Assembly (NCBI GenBank): GCA_017524805.1
Contig: JAFXUX010000033.1
Coordinates: forward strand, 62,001-126,000
DNA: 64,000 bases
Reading direction: 5' to 3'
Origin: Candidatus Methanomethylophilaceae archaeon
GTDB lineage: Archaea; Thermoplasmatota; Thermoplasmata; Methanomassiliicoccales; Methanomethylophilaceae
The stretch's first letter is position 1; every line of letters starts with the position of its first letter. The position numbers and the translations under genes were made by a program. The notes beneath the pieces were generated by a model that was not told the origin of the DNA, made no database searches, and saw only the letters and a program-made list of their open reading frames with translations. Positions 12,971 to 19,477 of the stretch are shown here, in pieces.

Positions 12971-14368
12971 ATGCTGTCAAATGTGGGCAGAGGAGAATTA
13001 TCGATAGGCCCTGCGAGAACTCGCGAAGAAAATGGAAGGGCAATCCAAGAAGTAGACATAACCTTCGTTCTTCCGGGGGAGAATGCCCAGACCAAGACGC
13101 TGTTCTACAGCGTGCAGGCCGAATATGGATACGGCCTGTGCTCGGATCTCTCGGACGCTTATGTGATGGCGTCCCTCGTCTATTGCATGAGGAGAGGGCT
13201 GGACATCGTGGCGGAATCCCCAATGAGCAGCCACCTCTACCACAATGTTACCGAGTACCTGATCCCCTCCCTTGTCCATACTGACGGCCACCTCGAAGCA
13301 ATCAAGATCCATGCCCCTATAACGAAGGACTCGAAGGTACGCGCCGGAAAGCACGTGGGTACGGGAATGTCATGCGGCGTGGACTCCATGCACGCGCTCT
13401 GGCACTATCTCGACTACGAAGACAGCAGCCGCAGGCTGACGCACTTGTGCATAACCGATGTCGGAGCTTTCAACGTCGTTTACGGCAGCGATGAGAATAT
13501 CAAAAAAGTCAAAGAAAGATCGTACGAACGTGCAAGAACAGTATCCGAAGACATCGATCTTCCTCTGATTGAAATCGAATGCAACATAAGAGAAGTATTG
13601 AAGCAAAGCCACAGGCTGACCCATACCTACACAGACCTGTTCTCCATAATGATGCTGAGATACTTCTGGAAGGTCTATTACTACGCATCAGTGGGCGACG
13701 GGAAGCTTGCCCTAGAGCTGGAAAACAACAGCAGACACGACTCCGGATACTATGAGATGTTCATCCTGCCTTTGGTGTCCGACGGAAAGCTGGACATTAT
13801 GTCCGAAGGATTCATCTCGAATCGCTTCCAAAAAATCAAAGACATAAAGGACGCCCCGTACGCCCAGAAATACCTCTACTCCTGCGTGAAAAGGAGCGAG
13901 AATTGTGGCGTCTGCAGCAAATGCCTCAGAAACCTTTGGAATCTGGATGCGCTCGGTTGCCTCGATTCATTCCGCGATGCTTACGATATCGATGCTTACC
14001 TGAAAAAACGCAGAGTGCTTATGATCAAACTGGCCAATCAAGCCGGAAAGAATGATTTCGTCGAGGATGCGATCGGCGTATTCGCCGGCAACAAGGATCC
14101 AGATTACCTTTACGCCCTAAACAGCATAAAGAAGATTGAAACCGCAGTATCCGATTACGAAAAAGGCAAGAATCTGAAAAGATGCTTCAGGATATTCAAA
14201 CATTACAGGCGTTACAGCACTCTGGCCTACGTATACTACGGCAAATCGCTGTTGGAAGGGAAGGGAACCGCCGCCGACGAAGAGCTAGGAAGGAAGGTCA
14301 TGGAATCCGATAGGGCCAGAAAATACCTGCTGAAACACAGGGTTTCCGAAGATGACGAATCGGAATAA
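12971..14368 (+). CDS. PP-loop ATPase-like protein with zinc knuckle and Sel1-like tail (copy 1)
   Basis: 465 residues of unknown function. Residues about 130-143 (GTGMSCGVDSMHAL) match the SGGxDS-type PP-loop of ATP pyrophosphatases, as in QueC, asparagine synthase and argininosuccinate synthase. A zinc knuckle CGVCSKC at about residue 312 recalls the QueC CxxC cluster. The C-terminal 100 residues (YYGKSLLEGKGTAADEELGR) look like a Sel1-type helical repeat. About nine in ten residues match copy 2 at 15781-17163. The ATG at 12971 fits the open frame, but promoter spacing and alignment with copy 2 favour GTG at 12983. It may activate a carboxylate or nucleotide by adenylation; the substrate is unknown. 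Confidence 0.75.
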   Translation: MLSNVGRGELSIGPARTREENGRAIQEVDITFVLPGENAQTKTLFYSVQAEYGYGLCSDLSDAYVMASLVYCMRRGLDIVAESPMSSHLYHNVTEYLIPSLVHTDGHLEAIKIHAPITKDSKVRAGKHVGTGMSCGVDSMHALWHYLDYEDSSRRLTHLCITDVGAFNVVYGSDENIKKVKERSYERARTVSEDIDLPLIEIECNIREVLKQSHRLTHTYTDLFSIMMLRYFWKVYYYASVGDGKLALELENNSRHDSGYYEMFILPLVSDGKLDIMSEGFISNRFQKIKDIKDAPYAQKYLYSCVKRSENCGVCSKCLRNLWNLDALGCLDSFRDAYDIDAYLKKRRVLMIKLANQAGKNDFVEDAIGVFAGNKDPDYLYALNSIKKIETAVSDYEKGKNLKRCFRIFKHYRRYSTLAYVYYGKSLLEGKGTAADEELGRKVMESDRARKYLLKHRVSEDDESE

Positions 14369-14371
14369 GAA

Positions 14372-14432
14372 AAGAATACCCGGCCAACTCCGAACTCTTC
14401 CTGATGCGCTGGAAATCCATCTCTGTGCCGAT
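14372..14432 (-). pseudogene. Possible remnant of the esterase 3' end
   Basis: On the minus strand this stretch reads IGTEMDFQRIRKSSELA, similar to IGPGSHFQRIEERLELG near the end of the esterase at 17581-18231. Both lie just downstream of a PP-loop copy and face it. Twelve bases (TTTCCAGCGCAT) are identical. It may be a leftover of a segment duplication that carried the PP-loop gene and the tail of its convergent neighbour. The match is short and could be chance. Confidence 0.25.
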
Positions 14433-14513
14433 CATCTAACAGAACGATGTGTCGCTTTTGATTCCCATATTGCCTGTGGCAAAGACAAACCCGCATATCT
14501 GTTCTTTCAACCC

Positions 14514-15659
14514 TCAGGATTCTTTGTATTCTATCGTCCTGTTCAATGGCACTACAGTCGTACCGTCGCTTAAATCCTTAGCGACAGTGGCTCCCGCGGC
14601 AATCTTACAATTATTACCGATAACTATGTTCCCCACCAATACGGCTCCAGCACCGATGAATACGCCATCGCCAATTTTAGGTGCCCCATAGCGTTTATGG
14701 CCCTTCGTCTTATTGGACCCGATTGTCACCTGCTGGTATATAGTGCATTTTTTTCCGATCACCGCTGAATCACTGATAAAAATGGAAAGAATCCCGTGAG
14801 GAAAACTGGGGATCGCCGAGATTTTGGAGCTTATACCTATCCAGCTTCCGCGCTTCTCCAAGACATAATAATAAAGATTCAACATCATTTTCTTGTCAGA
14901 AGCGCCACTTTTTATAGCTTTTCTTAATCTGAATATATATTCTACCTGCCATGGTATCCTTTTGCCTAAAAACATTGATTTTTCAAATAATTCATATGAT
15001 TTATATAAATCGCGAGGCACCACGTCACCGTCGAAATAAAACTCGGATAATAGAAATATGCATCTGGACGACTGGCTGCTATTGCAAAGCAAAAATGATT
15101 CGCGACGGTCGTTAATATCGGTGCTTTGGAAGAGTATGTTAGCTAGCGGTGCCACAGCCTCTTTCACTCCGGATTTGACTGCGGATCTCAGCATCATTGT
15201 TGCTTTGCTGATATCCTTCTTTGTCACTTTACCTTCAATATACATCATTCCGAGCCTATAATAGATGCCATCGTTTCCTAAAGCCTCCAATGACTTGCAT
15301 AAATCAAAGGCGCGTGCCCTTTCAGTTTGGCTTTTGCTTGAATATAGCTCATCAATCAACAGAACAGATGCATCCTGATTTCCGGATTTTGATGCCTGCT
15401 CCAATAAATCTATAGCTTTTTTTCTGTCACTGGGAACAATGTTTCCTGTAAGATACCACTCCGCAAGCATAAGCTGGAAAGCGGGCCTACCTTCCCGCGC
15501 TAGTTCCGTGCAGATTTCTGCCGCTTTCAATCTGCTTTCCTGATTCCCTGATGCATATGCATTGATTAAAGACAGAAAAGACGACTCATCATCGATATCG
15601 TCGATCGCTGAAAGAACAGAATTATCACTCATGCCCAACAACCTCAAGCATTTCTCCAT
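14514..15659 (-). CDS. Sel1-repeat protein fused to a hexapeptide acyltransferase
   Basis: 381 residues. The first 240 hold Sel1/TPR-like helical repeats (for example YYRLGMMYIEGKVTKKD, LSEFYFDGDVVPRDLYKSYE). The last 110 are a left-handed beta-helix of the serine acetyltransferase type: ISDSAVIGKKCTIYQQVTIG, KIGDGVFIGAGAVLVGN, VIGNNCKIAAGATVAKDL. It probably transfers an acetyl group to a sugar or amino-acid acceptor, using the helical repeats as a scaffold. The gene is clearly AT-richer than its neighbours and sits on the opposite strand between the two PP-loop copies, suggesting acquisition. An in-frame ATG at 15632, preceded by GAGG, is a possible alternative start. Confidence 0.8.
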   Translation of the reverse strand: MEKCLRLLGMSDNSVLSAIDDIDDESSFLSLINAYASGNQESRLKAAEICTELAREGRPAFQLMLAEWYLTGNIVPSDRKKAIDLLEQASKSGNQDASVLLIDELYSSKSQTERARAFDLCKSLEALGNDGIYYRLGMMYIEGKVTKKDISKATMMLRSAVKSGVKEAVAPLANILFQSTDINDRRESFLLCNSSQSSRCIFLLSEFYFDGDVVPRDLYKSYELFEKSMFLGKRIPWQVEYIFRLRKAIKSGASDKKMMLNLYYYVLEKRGSWIGISSKISAIPSFPHGILSIFISDSAVIGKKCTIYQQVTIGSNKTKGHKRYGAPKIGDGVFIGAGAVLVGNIVIGNNCKIAAGATVAKDLSDGTTVVPLNRTIEYKES

Positions 15660-15762: not shown

Positions 15763-15780
15763 ATATCCTTGCCGTCAGAT

Positions 15781-17163
15781 ATGGACAGAGGAAAATTGTC
15801 GATAGGGCCTGCGAGAACTCGCGAAGAAAATGGAAGAGTGATACAGGAGGTCGACATTACCATAGCTGTTCCAGGTGAGGATACCCAGACCAAGACGCTG
15901 TTCTACAGCGTGCAGGCCGAATATGGATACGGCCTGTGCTCAGATCTCTCGGACGCTTATGTGATAGCGTCGCTCATCTACTGCATGAAAAGAGGGCTGG
16001 ACATCGTGGCAGAATCCCCCATGAGCAGCCATCTCTACCACAACGTGACCGAGTACCTGATTCCCTCCCTTGTCTATACCGACAGCCGCCTCGAAGCAAT
16101 CAAGATCCATGCCCCTATAACGAAGGACTCGAAGGTACGCGCCGGGAAGCACGTGGGCACGGGCATGTCGTGCGGCGTGGACTCCATGCATGCGCTCTGG
16201 CACTATCTTGACTACGAAGACAAGAGCCGCAGGCTGACCCACCTGTGCATAGCCAACGTCGGTGCCTTCAATGGCCTTTATGGCAGTAAAAATAGTATTA
16301 AAAAAGTTAAAGATATGGCATATGAACGCGCCAGAACGGTATCCGAGGACATCAAACTTCCTCTGATCGAAATCGAATGCAACATACAGAGCGTGTTAAG
16401 ACAGGGCCATAGGCTGACCCATACATACACGGATCTGTTCTCCATATTGATGCTGAGGTATTTCTGGAGGACCTATTACTACGCATCGGTGGGCGACGGA
16501 AAGCTTGCGCTCGAGCTGGAAAACAACAGCAAGCACGATTCTGGATACTATGAGATGTTCTTGCTGCCTTTGGTGTCCGACGGAAAGCTGGACATCATGT
16601 CCGAAGGATTCATCTCCAACCGCTTCCAGAAACTCAAAGACATAAAAGACGCCCCGTACGCCCAGAAATACCTCTACTCCTGCGTGAAAAAGAGCGAGAA
16701 CTGCGGCGTATGCTCAAAATGCCTCAGAAACCTTTGGAATCTGGATGCACTCGGATGCCTCGATTCGTTCCGCGATGCTTACGATATCGACGCTTACCTG
16801 AAAAGACGCAAAACAAACATGTTCATTCTGGCCAATCAATCCGGAAAGAATGATTTCGTCGAGGACGCGATCGGCGTATTCGCCGGCAACAAGGATCCAG
16901 ATTACCTTTATGCCCTGAAAAGATTGAAAAATCTTGAAACCGCAGTATCCGATTACGAAAAAGGCAAGAATCTGAAAAGATGCTTCAGGATATTCAAATA
17001 TAACAGGCGTTACAGCACTCTGGCCTACGTATACTACGGCAAATCGCTGTTGGAAGGGAAGGGAACCGCCGCAGACGAAGAGCTAGGAAGGAAGGTCATG
17101 GAATCCGAGAGAGTCAGAAAATACCTGATGAAACACCCTGACCTCGCCCCACATGATGCCTGA
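15781..17163 (+). CDS. PP-loop ATPase-like protein with zinc knuckle and Sel1-like tail (copy 2)
   Basis: 460 residues, a near-identical paralogue of the 12971-14368 gene. It has the same PP-loop GTGMSCGVDSMHAL, the CGVCSKCLRNLWNLDALG knuckle and the C-terminal KSLLEGKGTAADEELGR repeat. The main differences are in residues 20-40, around the SKNSIKKVKDMAYERA segment, and in the last dozen residues. The ATG that starts copy 1 is TTG here (15769), while the next candidate, GTG in copy 1, is ATG at 15781. I therefore start at 15781, which also fits the TATA box. Directly downstream and in the same frame lies a third, interrupted homologous segment. Confidence 0.75.
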   Translation: MDRGKLSIGPARTREENGRVIQEVDITIAVPGEDTQTKTLFYSVQAEYGYGLCSDLSDAYVIASLIYCMKRGLDIVAESPMSSHLYHNVTEYLIPSLVYTDSRLEAIKIHAPITKDSKVRAGKHVGTGMSCGVDSMHALWHYLDYEDKSRRLTHLCIANVGAFNGLYGSKNSIKKVKDMAYERARTVSEDIKLPLIEIECNIQSVLRQGHRLTHTYTDLFSILMLRYFWRTYYYASVGDGKLALELENNSKHDSGYYEMFLLPLVSDGKLDIMSEGFISNRFQKLKDIKDAPYAQKYLYSCVKKSENCGVCSKCLRNLWNLDALGCLDSFRDAYDIDAYLKRRKTNMFILANQSGKNDFVEDAIGVFAGNKDPDYLYALKRLKNLETAVSDYEKGKNLKRCFRIFKYNRRYSTLAYVYYGKSLLEGKGTAADEELGRKVMESERVRKYLMKHPDLAPHDA

Positions 17164-17169
17164 GTAGGT

Positions 17170-17529
17170 ATGCAACTCTGGTCACGACAGAAAAAATCGA
17201 ATAAGCCGTTCGTCGAGAATGCCGCCCGCGTCTTCTCAAGCAACAGCAATCCAGACTACCTAAGCGTCTTGGGCAAGATAGATGCGCTCAGAAACGCCGT
17301 ATGCTACGACGAAAAGGCGAGAACATAGAGCATTGTTAGAGACTTTCTCAAAACAAATGTCTCGACAAATGGCCTTCTATTGTTAGACAAAGAGAGATTT
17401 GAGAACAAAGGGACCGACACCTACAAAAAACTCGTGAAATAGATCATCAGTTCCGCTCAGGTCAAAGCATAGTTGAGGAAACGTCGTCTAACCAGTATAA
17501 CAATTAGAGCTGCATCCGACTATCCTTAA
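17170..17529 (+). pseudogene. Third PP-loop paralogue fragment interrupted by three TAG codons
   Basis: Begins with ATG six bases after the stop of copy 2 and in the same frame. It reads MQLWSRQKKSNKPFVENAARVFSSNSNPDYLS and onward. It aligns with the C-terminal 100 residues of the PP-loop proteins: FVENAARVFSSNSNPDYLSVL against FVEDAIGVFAGNKDPDYLYAL, and later STNGLLLLDKERFENKGT against STLAYVYYGKSLLEGKGT. The only in-frame stops before the TAA at 17527 are TAG at 17326, 17440 and 17470. Two of these align, without gaps, to Lys and Tyr of copy 2. It is either a decaying copy or a reading frame in which TAG is read as pyrrolysine. No complete gene ends in TAG here. Confidence 0.6.
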
Positions 17530-17580
17530 GCCTCAGAAAGCACCAAATCATCATAACAAATGCGAGACCTATTGCGGAAG

Positions 17581-18231
17581 TCAATGGACCAAAGCATCAT
17601 ACAAGAAAGCCAGACCCAATTCCAGACGCTCCTCAATGCGCTGGAAATGCGACCCGGGGCCGATCGACACTTCCGTCTCGCATCCCCTGGATCTGAGAAT
17701 ATGCGCCGTCTCTTCCGTGCGTTCCCTGACAGTGCGGAGTATGGCGCATCCGGAACGTTCCTCCCTGTCTCCCAGAGAAAGGAAGGCCTTTTTCCCTTCG
17801 CCGCTGAAATCCAAGTCTCTGAGATACTCGACCCAGCCTTCGTACCACAGGGAACCGGACATCGATGAGACAGCGGAGAACATGTCGCCATGGGTGAAAG
17901 CATACAGCGAGAACAGCCCTCCGAGAGAATATCCGGCAATCCCATATGCCGGCGGAGACAAGCCGTGAATCTCCACCTCTTCAGGTATAATCTCTTCGAC
18001 GAGCCGCCTCAGAGTCTCGTCTGCATTGCCGCCGAAATCGGGATCCCCTGCACGCAGACCGGGGGCCTTCCAAGGCGTCAGGGCATCGTTCCAATCGTCG
18101 TACCTTATGTCGATGACGTTGGCATTATGGGGCGCCGCAGATGCTATGTCGAACGGATGGCCGGCCATGTCGATGAAAATGATGCATGGCGCGAGATCGT
18201 CCCCGCATGGAATGAATTCTGTCTCTGCCAT
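17581..18231 (-). CDS. Alpha/beta-hydrolase esterase, enterobactin-esterase/EsD-like
   Basis: 216 residues from the ATG at 18231, chosen because GGAGG lies ten bases before it; a TTG at 18258 opens the frame further. The nucleophile elbow GYSLGG has S102. Acid and histidine candidates are in FLSLGDREE and GPGSHFQRI. The layout (SSMSGSLWYEGWVEYL after the elbow) resembles the putative esterase family of siderophore esterases and S-formylglutathione hydrolases. There is no signal peptide, so it is cytosolic. It follows argD by about 60 bases and may be the last gene of the arginine operon, though a role in that pathway is not evident. Confidence 0.75.
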   Translation of the reverse strand: MAETEFIPCGDDLAPCIIFIDMAGHPFDIASAAPHNANVIDIRYDDWNDALTPWKAPGLRAGDPDFGGNADETLRRLVEEIIPEEVEIHGLSPPAYGIAGYSLGGLFSLYAFTHGDMFSAVSSMSGSLWYEGWVEYLRDLDFSGEGKKAFLSLGDREERSGCAILRTVRERTEETAHILRSRGCETEVSIGPGSHFQRIEERLELGLAFLYDALVH

Positions 18232-18292
18232 ACGTCCGATGCCTCCGATCGCAACCAATTGAATGGCCGCCGGTTTCCCGGCGAAAGAAGTT

Positions 18293-19477
18293 TCAGAAAG
18301 CGCTTTCCTTGAAGAGCGCAGTGAATCTGTCCTTTTCCGCGTCGCTCAGGATGAGCGGAGGAATGAGGCGTATGGTGTTGCCGTGGCAGACGTTGACCAG
18401 GACGCCGTTGTCGCGGCAATGCTTCTGGACGTTGGATGCCGATTCGGCGGTATCCATCTCGATCCCGATGATGAGGCCGTATCCGCGGACTTCCTTGGCT
18501 TTGGGGGAGCCGACCGCGAGAAGGTCTTCCTTCCATCTGGCCCCCATCTCTCTCGCATGCTCGACGACCTTGTCGCGCTTCATGACGTCGATGACGGCGT
18601 TTCCCGCGGCGCATACCAAGGGGTTGCCTCCGAAGGTAGTGCCATGTGTTCCCGGAGTCATCACCGACGATATTTCCTCGGTCGTCGTGACGGCGCCTAT
18701 CGGGAGACCTCCGCCGAGAGCTTTGGCCATAGTGATTATGTCCGGGATGACACCGAAGTTCTCTATCCCGTACCACTGGCCGGTGCGTCCGATTCCGGTC
18801 TGGACTTCGTCGCAGATCATCAGAGCGCCCTTGTCGTCGCACACGTCGCGGACGGTCTTGAAGAACTCCTTGGGCACGGTGCGGACCCCGCCCTCGCCCT
18901 GTATGGGCTCCACTATGACCGCCGCTGTGTCGGAATCCACCATCGATTTGATCTGCTCACAATCCCCGTAGTCGAAATACTTGAACGCGTCGCTGATCAA
19001 AGGCTCGAATGATCTTTGGTATTTCTCCTGCCCTGTGGCTCCGAGCGAGGCGGCTGTTCTTCCGTGGAAACCGTTCAAGGCGGACAGTATCTTCCCGCGG
19101 CCGGTGTAGCGCACCGCAGTTTTGAAGGCACCCTCGTTGGCTTCCGCGCCGCTGTTGCAGAAAAGCGTCCGATCCAGATTTCCAGGGGTTATCGACGCGA
19201 TTCTCTCGGCGAGCTCCGCCTGCTGCTCCACGTAGTAGAGATTCGACACGTGGCACATGCGGGAGGCCTGCTCCTGTATCGCCGCGGTGACGTCAGGATG
19301 CACATATCCCAGCGAATTCACGGCGATTCCGGCCACCAGATCCAAGTATTCTTTTTCTTCCGTATCGTATAGGCAGCATCCCTTCCCATGCGTGAAAGAC
19401 AGGTCTATCCGCCCGTAATTCTGGAAAAGGAATTGCGATGATTTCTCTTTGATATCGTTGAATTTCATTTCTCTCAT
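18293..19477 (-). CDS. argD: Acetylornithine aminotransferase
   Basis: Class III PLP-dependent aminotransferase converting N-acetylglutamate 5-semialdehyde to N-acetylornithine. 394 residues. Motifs: LDLVAGIAVNSLGYVHP, FCNSGAEANEGAFKTA, GFHGRTAASLGATG, VEPIQGEGGV, ICDEVQTGIGRTG and the PLP lysine in TMAKALGGGLPIGA, followed by GTHGTTFGGNPLVCAAG. The ATG at 19477 overlaps the argB stop by four bases (ATGA), indicating translational coupling. Part of the argC-argJ-argB-argD operon. In archaea such enzymes can also act on other acylated amino acids, but the context points to arginine. Confidence 0.93.
   Translation of the reverse strand: MREMKFNDIKEKSSQFLFQNYGRIDLSFTHGKGCCLYDTEEKEYLDLVAGIAVNSLGYVHPDVTAAIQEQASRMCHVSNLYYVEQQAELAERIASITPGNLDRTLFCNSGAEANEGAFKTAVRYTGRGKILSALNGFHGRTAASLGATGQEKYQRSFEPLISDAFKYFDYGDCEQIKSMVDSDTAAVIVEPIQGEGGVRTVPKEFFKTVRDVCDDKGALMICDEVQTGIGRTGQWYGIENFGVIPDIITMAKALGGGLPIGAVTTTEEISSVMTPGTHGTTFGGNPLVCAAGNAVIDVMKRDKVVEHAREMGARWKEDLLAVGSPKAKEVRGYGLIIGIEMDTAESASNVQKHCRDNGVLVNVCHGNTIRLIPPLILSDAEKDRFTALFKESAF

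Follow-up and report, generated by a model that had tools for sequence, protein, structure and literature searches.

Three in-frame TAG codons in the stranded tail of a truncated paralogue from an archaeon with pyrrolysine genes

Introduction

An in-frame stop codon is the usual sign of a pseudogene, but this sign fails in archaea that decode TAG as pyrrolysine. It is well established that the TAG codon in MtmB, MtbB and MttB encodes a catalytic pyrrolysine, and a 2025 paper reportedly argues that some archaea read every TAG in this way. The locus described here raises the question in a direct form: is a 119-codon frame, in which every internal stop is a TAG, a gene that is translated through its amber codons, or is it a pseudogene? 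The frame lies in a stretch of 64,000 nucleotides from a gut methanogen, a Candidatus Methanomethylophilaceae archaeon (GCA_017524805.1, contig JAFXUX010000033.1, positions 62,001 to 126,000; hereafter the window), and in-frame stops alone would have misled us about it.

Results

A TAG-bearing frame behind two PP-loop-like genes

The part of the window that concerns us contains the following features.

12971..14368, plus strand: copy 1, PP-loop-like gene, 465 aa, 86–87% identity to copy 2
14514..15659, minus strand: acetyltransferase gene with a repeat-rich N-terminal part, between copies 1 and 2 (upstream of both copies in the sister species)
15769..17163, plus strand: copy 2, PP-loop-like gene, 464 aa, TGA stop, sharing its frame with the fragment and ending 6 bases upstream of the fragment's ATG
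17170..17529, plus strand: the fragment, 119 codons with three in-frame TAG and a final TAA at 17527-17529, taken as the stranded C-terminal end of a third member of the array
17326..17328, plus strand: TAG 1, Lys (AAG/AAA) in relatives
17440..17442, plus strand: TAG 2, Lys/Arg (AAG/AGG) in relatives
17470..17472, plus strand: TAG 3, Tyr/Phe (TAT/TAC/TTC) in relatives
17581..18258, minus strand: esterase-like ORF (presumed from a look at the sequence), convergent; in the sister species it directly follows the intact copy B
18293..19477, minus strand: argD-like aminotransferase (presumed), syntenic anchor

The names esterase and argD, and fen1 for the gene at the other flank, were all given from the look of the sequences and are presumptive.

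Reading of the plus strand from ATG 17170 to TAA 17527-17529 confirmed what a first-pass annotation of this DNA had described, namely a 119-codon frame with TAG at 17326, 17440 and 17470 and neither TAA nor TGA. Leftward, the frame is open only as far as the TGA of copy 2 (17161-17163), which lies in the same frame. No clear ribosome-binding site could be discerned by eye upstream of ATG 17170, and a terminator scan reported no terminator-like site on the plus strand of 17000-17650. The idea that a TAG-only frame is remarkable in itself was rejected, as the 479,952 bases sampled from this genome (the window plus 21 further stretches) contain 195 frames of at least 119 codons with at least three TAG and without TAA or TGA. 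It is the homology of the fragment that exceeds chance; its TAG-only openness does not.

A search of the window's own genome with copy 2 hit six loci. Two are copies 1 and 2, three are distant relatives on other contigs (34–35% identity), and the sixth is the fragment, which matches residues 359–455 of copy 2 with 32% identity, an E value of 9.8e-7 and three TAG in the match, so that the proposed homology to the C-terminus of the PP-loop proteins holds. The BLOSUM score of the fragment is highest against copy B of the sister species (146), followed by sister copy A (128), copy 2 (109) and copy 1 (106). In L014, L022 (sister copy A), copy 2 and copy 1, in this order, the codons are AAG, AAG, AAA and AAA in the column of TAG 1, AAG, AGG, AAG and AAG in that of TAG 2, and TAT, TTC, TAC and TAC in that of TAG 3. 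Two TAGs had earlier been placed opposite a Lys and a Tyr of copy 2, which is right for TAG 2 and TAG 3, and TAG 1 also falls on a Lys.

The parent genes carry an S-C-G-V-D-S motif, which we take to be a PP-loop, together with a Cys-rich segment, and their presumptive PP-loop identity comes from this motif. Copies 1 and 2 had no Pfam match, and QueC was matched marginally in one of eight relatives (E 0.098). Against the PDB, the family profile had only a match at chance level (E 0.24), PADLOC returned nothing for the three proteins submitted, and a structure prediction for copy 2 from the two window copies had a mean pLDDT of 39.1, making the model useless.

The sister species has an intact gene at this site

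We compared 31 genomes of the genus, with the window's own genome designated G000 and that of the sister species G026. In G026 the gene order is fen1 - acetyltransferase(−) - copy A - copy B - esterase(−) - argD(−), versus fen1 - copy 1 - acetyltransferase(−) - copy 2 - fragment - esterase(−) - argD(−) in the window, and both flanks of the array are linked to G026 by nucleotide matches. At the fragment's place G026 has an intact, full-length copy B whose tail contains no stop, and the ATG of the fragment falls opposite an internal Met (codon ~351) of copy B. The distance from the stop of copy A (L039 8043) to this Met (L039 9525) is 1,481 bases, versus 6 bases here; missing in the window is about 1.48 kb, made up of the spacer and codons 1 to ~350 of copy B. 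Since an intact full-length gene stands at its place in the sister species, the fragment reads as the stranded tail of the third array member, its first ~350 codons lost, and deletion of the spacer together with these codons would be the simplest account. One mark of a gene remnant, truncation relative to an intact relative at the same place, is therefore present. The fragment and the tail of copy B share 36% amino-acid identity, and the intact copies of the two species share 51–57% in that region.

A check of the TAGs in related genomes, as had been suggested, was possible against a single close copy of the array, in only one other genome among the 31, and there the gene is full length and its tail stop-free. 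A profile of the tail, run across the 31 genomes, matched two copies in G026, three places here and, weakly, one place in G001 (E 0.0014), and found no lone tail elsewhere; the profile was built with the fragment included, so that the fragment's own E value of 1.7e-46 is not independent. Among database contigs, a scan with a second alignment returned one record related to the array, Methanomassiliicoccaceae archaeon isolate Tb.RUG.172.

Two further observations concern the neighbours. In the window (12971-15659) copy 1 stands upstream of the acetyltransferase gene, and because there is no copy at that place in G026, it has the look of an additional duplicate or of a copy that has moved. In G026 the esterase ORF (L039 9743-10495, minus strand) reaches a TAG and then continues antisense into copy B; this TAG is possibly a true stop.

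UAG appears to be read as sense in this genome

ARAGORN found a tRNA-Pyl with a CUA anticodon at L007 7127-7197, followed by pylS, pylB, pylC and pylD, all above the NCBIfam cut-offs (TIGR02367, TIGR03910, TIGR03909, TIGR03911). With pylT and these four genes present, the earlier proposal is not overturned by an absence of pyl genes, which had been named as one thing that would refute it. PylS is present in 28 of the 31 genomes at an E value of 1e-30, and was not found in G002, a genome that is 61% complete.

A simple codon-usage caller gave 363 ORFs in the 479,952-base sample, ending in TGA (308), TAA (39) or TAG (16). A coding-like extension past the stop, with a score over 5, was seen for 10 of the 15 TAG-ended ORFs (out of 16) whose extension could be followed, versus 4 of 38 ending in TAA and 32 of 305 ending in TGA; in 5 of the 363 ORFs the TAG is apparently the true end (extension scores of 0.4 or less). 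Pfam scans of ten of the 16 TAG frames, translated through the TAG, gave matches that span it in two MtmB genes, a dimethylamine methyltransferase, MttB and a DUF7064 frame (TAG at codon 269, match 167–283). TAG also occurs in LicD-Sel1 and DUF6270-Sel1 frames; the case is less clear for the PHP and MarR frames and for those with no match.

Selection downstream of TAG can be followed between species. A paralogue of the parent genes (L010, contig C38) and its G026 orthologue (L032), with 89% amino-acid identity, have the same TAG in common, and omega is 0.063 both upstream (622 codons) and downstream (211 codons) of it. The TAG at codon 269 of the DUF7064/7065 gene (L057 9551-10426, minus strand) is likewise common to G000 and G026; the site is Glu (GAA/GAG) in the four other genomes compared residue by residue, a conserved motif runs past it, and matches to the gene occur in 17 of the 31 genomes. 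In copy A of G026 (L022) a TAG occupies a Lys codon, and the next 167 codons have an omega of 0.148 against copy B. Within the PP-loop-like family, nine of 30 rows carry one gene-body TAG (L010, L022, L023, L026, L032, L034, L035, L036 and L038), a count that leaves out flanking, non-homologous TAGs (L017, L024, L027 and one of two in L032) and takes L033 as TAG-free. A tRNA-Pyl with the CUA anticodon, pylS, pylB, pylC and pylD, and TAGs inside conserved genes with constraint downstream thus occur together, and the reading of UAG as sense in this genome is supported on a comparative rather than a peptide basis.

Some further details of TAG sites may be recorded here. Besides the methylamine methyltransferases, TAG-bearing genes in the sample are often rich in Sel1 repeats, with LicD or DUF6270 (L061 11682-13730 and L066 11506-13722, both minus strand). 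The TAG in common with L032 (G026:C56) lies at L060 18433-18435 (G000:C38), in the context NDRM-O-DLKL of a PP-loop-like/Sel1 gene, and purifying selection is strong to either side of it. The TAGs at codon 50 of L036 and codon 39 of L038 (G001 and G018) align, with synonymous divergence saturated; the alignment just upstream is weak, so that conservation of the site is no more than suggestive. Codon 485 of L023 and codon 488 of L026 (G027 and G002, 62% amino-acid identity) have the TAG at the same position (GF-O-S.Y.LFD), with an omega of 0.64 over the 80 codons downstream.

Constraint and decay of the tail

The frame of the fragment is free of frameshifts, TAA and TGA, and for this reason it was not filed firmly as a pseudogene. 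Measured to the stop, it differs in length from the tail of copy B by no more than one codon, and its alignment contains two gaps, each of a single codon. For comparison, of the 10 spacers with 60 bases or more, none was equally long in G000 and G026 (51 orthologue pairs; the count leaves out spacers longer than 3 kb and overlaps greater than 100 bases).

In codon models on 97 codons, which is a weak basis for deciding between neutral and constrained evolution, the freely estimated omega of the fragment was 0.43, and neither 1 nor the relatives' value was rejected (lnL −1205.40 with omega free, −1205.58 with the relatives' omega and −1206.66 with omega at 1). When the branch was fixed at the path lengths of the relatives (0.49–1.07), the fragment's omega became 0.68–1.41, versus 0.24–0.27 for the relatives in the same fits. 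The coding score of the fragment is far higher in frame than off frame, but at 0.068 per codon it is low: of 899 gene windows, whose mean is 0.274 (sd 0.099), 2.9% score lower; simulated neutral decay of four relatives' tails gave mean scores of 0.066–0.093 at 0.4 and 0.014–0.039 at 0.55 substitutions per site.

The stops were treated in the same way. Sense TAGs number about 11 per ~130,000 coding codons in the sample, so that ~0.01 would be expected in 119 codons, and the fragment's TAG density is ~300 times that of the sampled genes. Under neutral decay 1.2–1.6 TAGs are expected in the tail, and a count of three lies inside the neutral range; the probability that such a tail has no TAA or TGA is about 0.05–0.12, that of at least three TAG and no other stop is about 0.013, and that of TAG-only stops, if three stops arise neutrally, is about 0.05. 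Relaxed, near-neutral evolution would account for the substitution pattern, for the codon usage and for the density of TAG. The eroded coding score and the clock-like omega point to relaxed constraint on the tail, and over 97 codons they are not decisive; the likelihoods favour an intermediate state, in which the tail is relaxed, perhaps dead only recently, and TAG is tolerated.

Discussion

Whether the frame is translated or a pseudogene had been left open by the first-pass annotation, and the evidence now leans towards a truncated remnant under relaxed constraint. The account that we somewhat prefer, and consider fairly likely, is that the fragment is a decaying remnant, the left-over 3′ end of the last PP-loop-like member of the array, and that it is not broken by its TAGs. 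The last member would have lost the spacer and codons 1 to ~350 of copy B, stranding the tail, which would then have come under weak or no selection. Its TAGs may each have come from a Lys or Tyr codon altered at a single base, and would have cost nothing because UAG is no reliable stop here and the PP-loop domain is gone from the tail. The three TAGs probably do not stop translation, and the gene was apparently broken when its first ~350 codons were lost rather than by the TAGs. A ribosome re-starting at ATG 17170 after the stop of copy 2 would read all three TAGs as pyrrolysine and stop at TAA 17527, and the product would probably be nothing useful.

A more doubtful reading is that the tail is still a gene, encoding a 119-residue helical protein with three pyrrolysines that is made by re-initiation after copy 2 and is perhaps a loose partner of the full-length copies. 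TAG being sense in this genome would allow it, as would the ATG 6 bases past the stop of copy 2 with no terminator-like site nearby, and the frame has stayed free of frameshifts, TAA and TGA, whereas none of the spacers compared between G000 and G026 kept its length; stops confined to TAG are also rather improbable under neutrality, as calculated above. However, three TAGs in 119 codons exceed even the PP-loop-like family, where each of the nine carriers has one, as well as the sampled genes; codon usage is eroded, evolution is near neutral if clock-like, and the ATG is not preceded by a clear ribosome-binding site. That a short stand-alone protein was born of the gene tail and is still translated with its three pyrrolysines we regard as unlikely. 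If it is, amber codons would drift into weakly constrained genes like any sense codon, with TAA and TGA staying excluded.

Should the TAGs terminate translation here, the fragment would be an ordinary pseudogene or encode at most a 52-residue peptide. Some UAG termination may occur, given the five ORFs in which the coding signal apparently ceases at the TAG, but few genes end in this way, a coding signal continues in most of the TAG-ended ORFs that could be followed, and purifying selection persists past TAG in the sister-species comparisons, which makes this quite improbable. An assembly or sequencing artefact, with the truncated junction a mis-join in a metagenome-derived genome, we consider very improbable indeed: tandem repeats are hard to assemble and the sister genome is itself a metagenome assembly, but the fragment has only ~30% identity to the window's copies, and is therefore no collapsed duplicate, and its best relative is the sister gene at the same position.

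The tail illustrates that in such archaea a TAG by itself says little, and that truncation, frame and relatives are needed to judge a pseudogene. The locus pairs an intact copy in the sister with a nearly neutral tail that lacks TAA and TGA, and lends itself to asking whether UAG is fully a sense codon in these methanogens.

Several known systems share features with the fragment. Like the truncated tandem duplicates left by deletions in gene arrays, it has an intact relative in the sister at the same place, retains the 3′ end only and probably evolves in a relaxed manner; unlike them, its frame is unbroken and every in-frame stop is a codon that this organism can read. The MtmB, MtbB and MttB methyltransferases of the same genome also have a TAG within an open frame, but there it is a single TAG inside a complete enzyme domain. 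Another is Ca. Methanomethylophilus alvus, a methanogen of the same order, in which Borrel et al. 2014 (PMC4153887) report TAG as the stop of 1.6% of genes, predict 16 additional proteins with pyrrolysine, and argue that a new in-frame TAG would be a stable mutation. The two cases are alike in having in-frame TAG outside the methylamine methyltransferase genes and few TAG terminators (1.6% there versus 5–16 of 363 called ORFs here), and they differ in that whole genes are fused across the in-frame TAG there, whereas here a start-less tail carries three TAGs (PMC4153887). By this analogy the fragment would represent the TAG behaviour seen in Ca. M. alvus, placed in a truncated paralogue, with each of its parts being ordinary.
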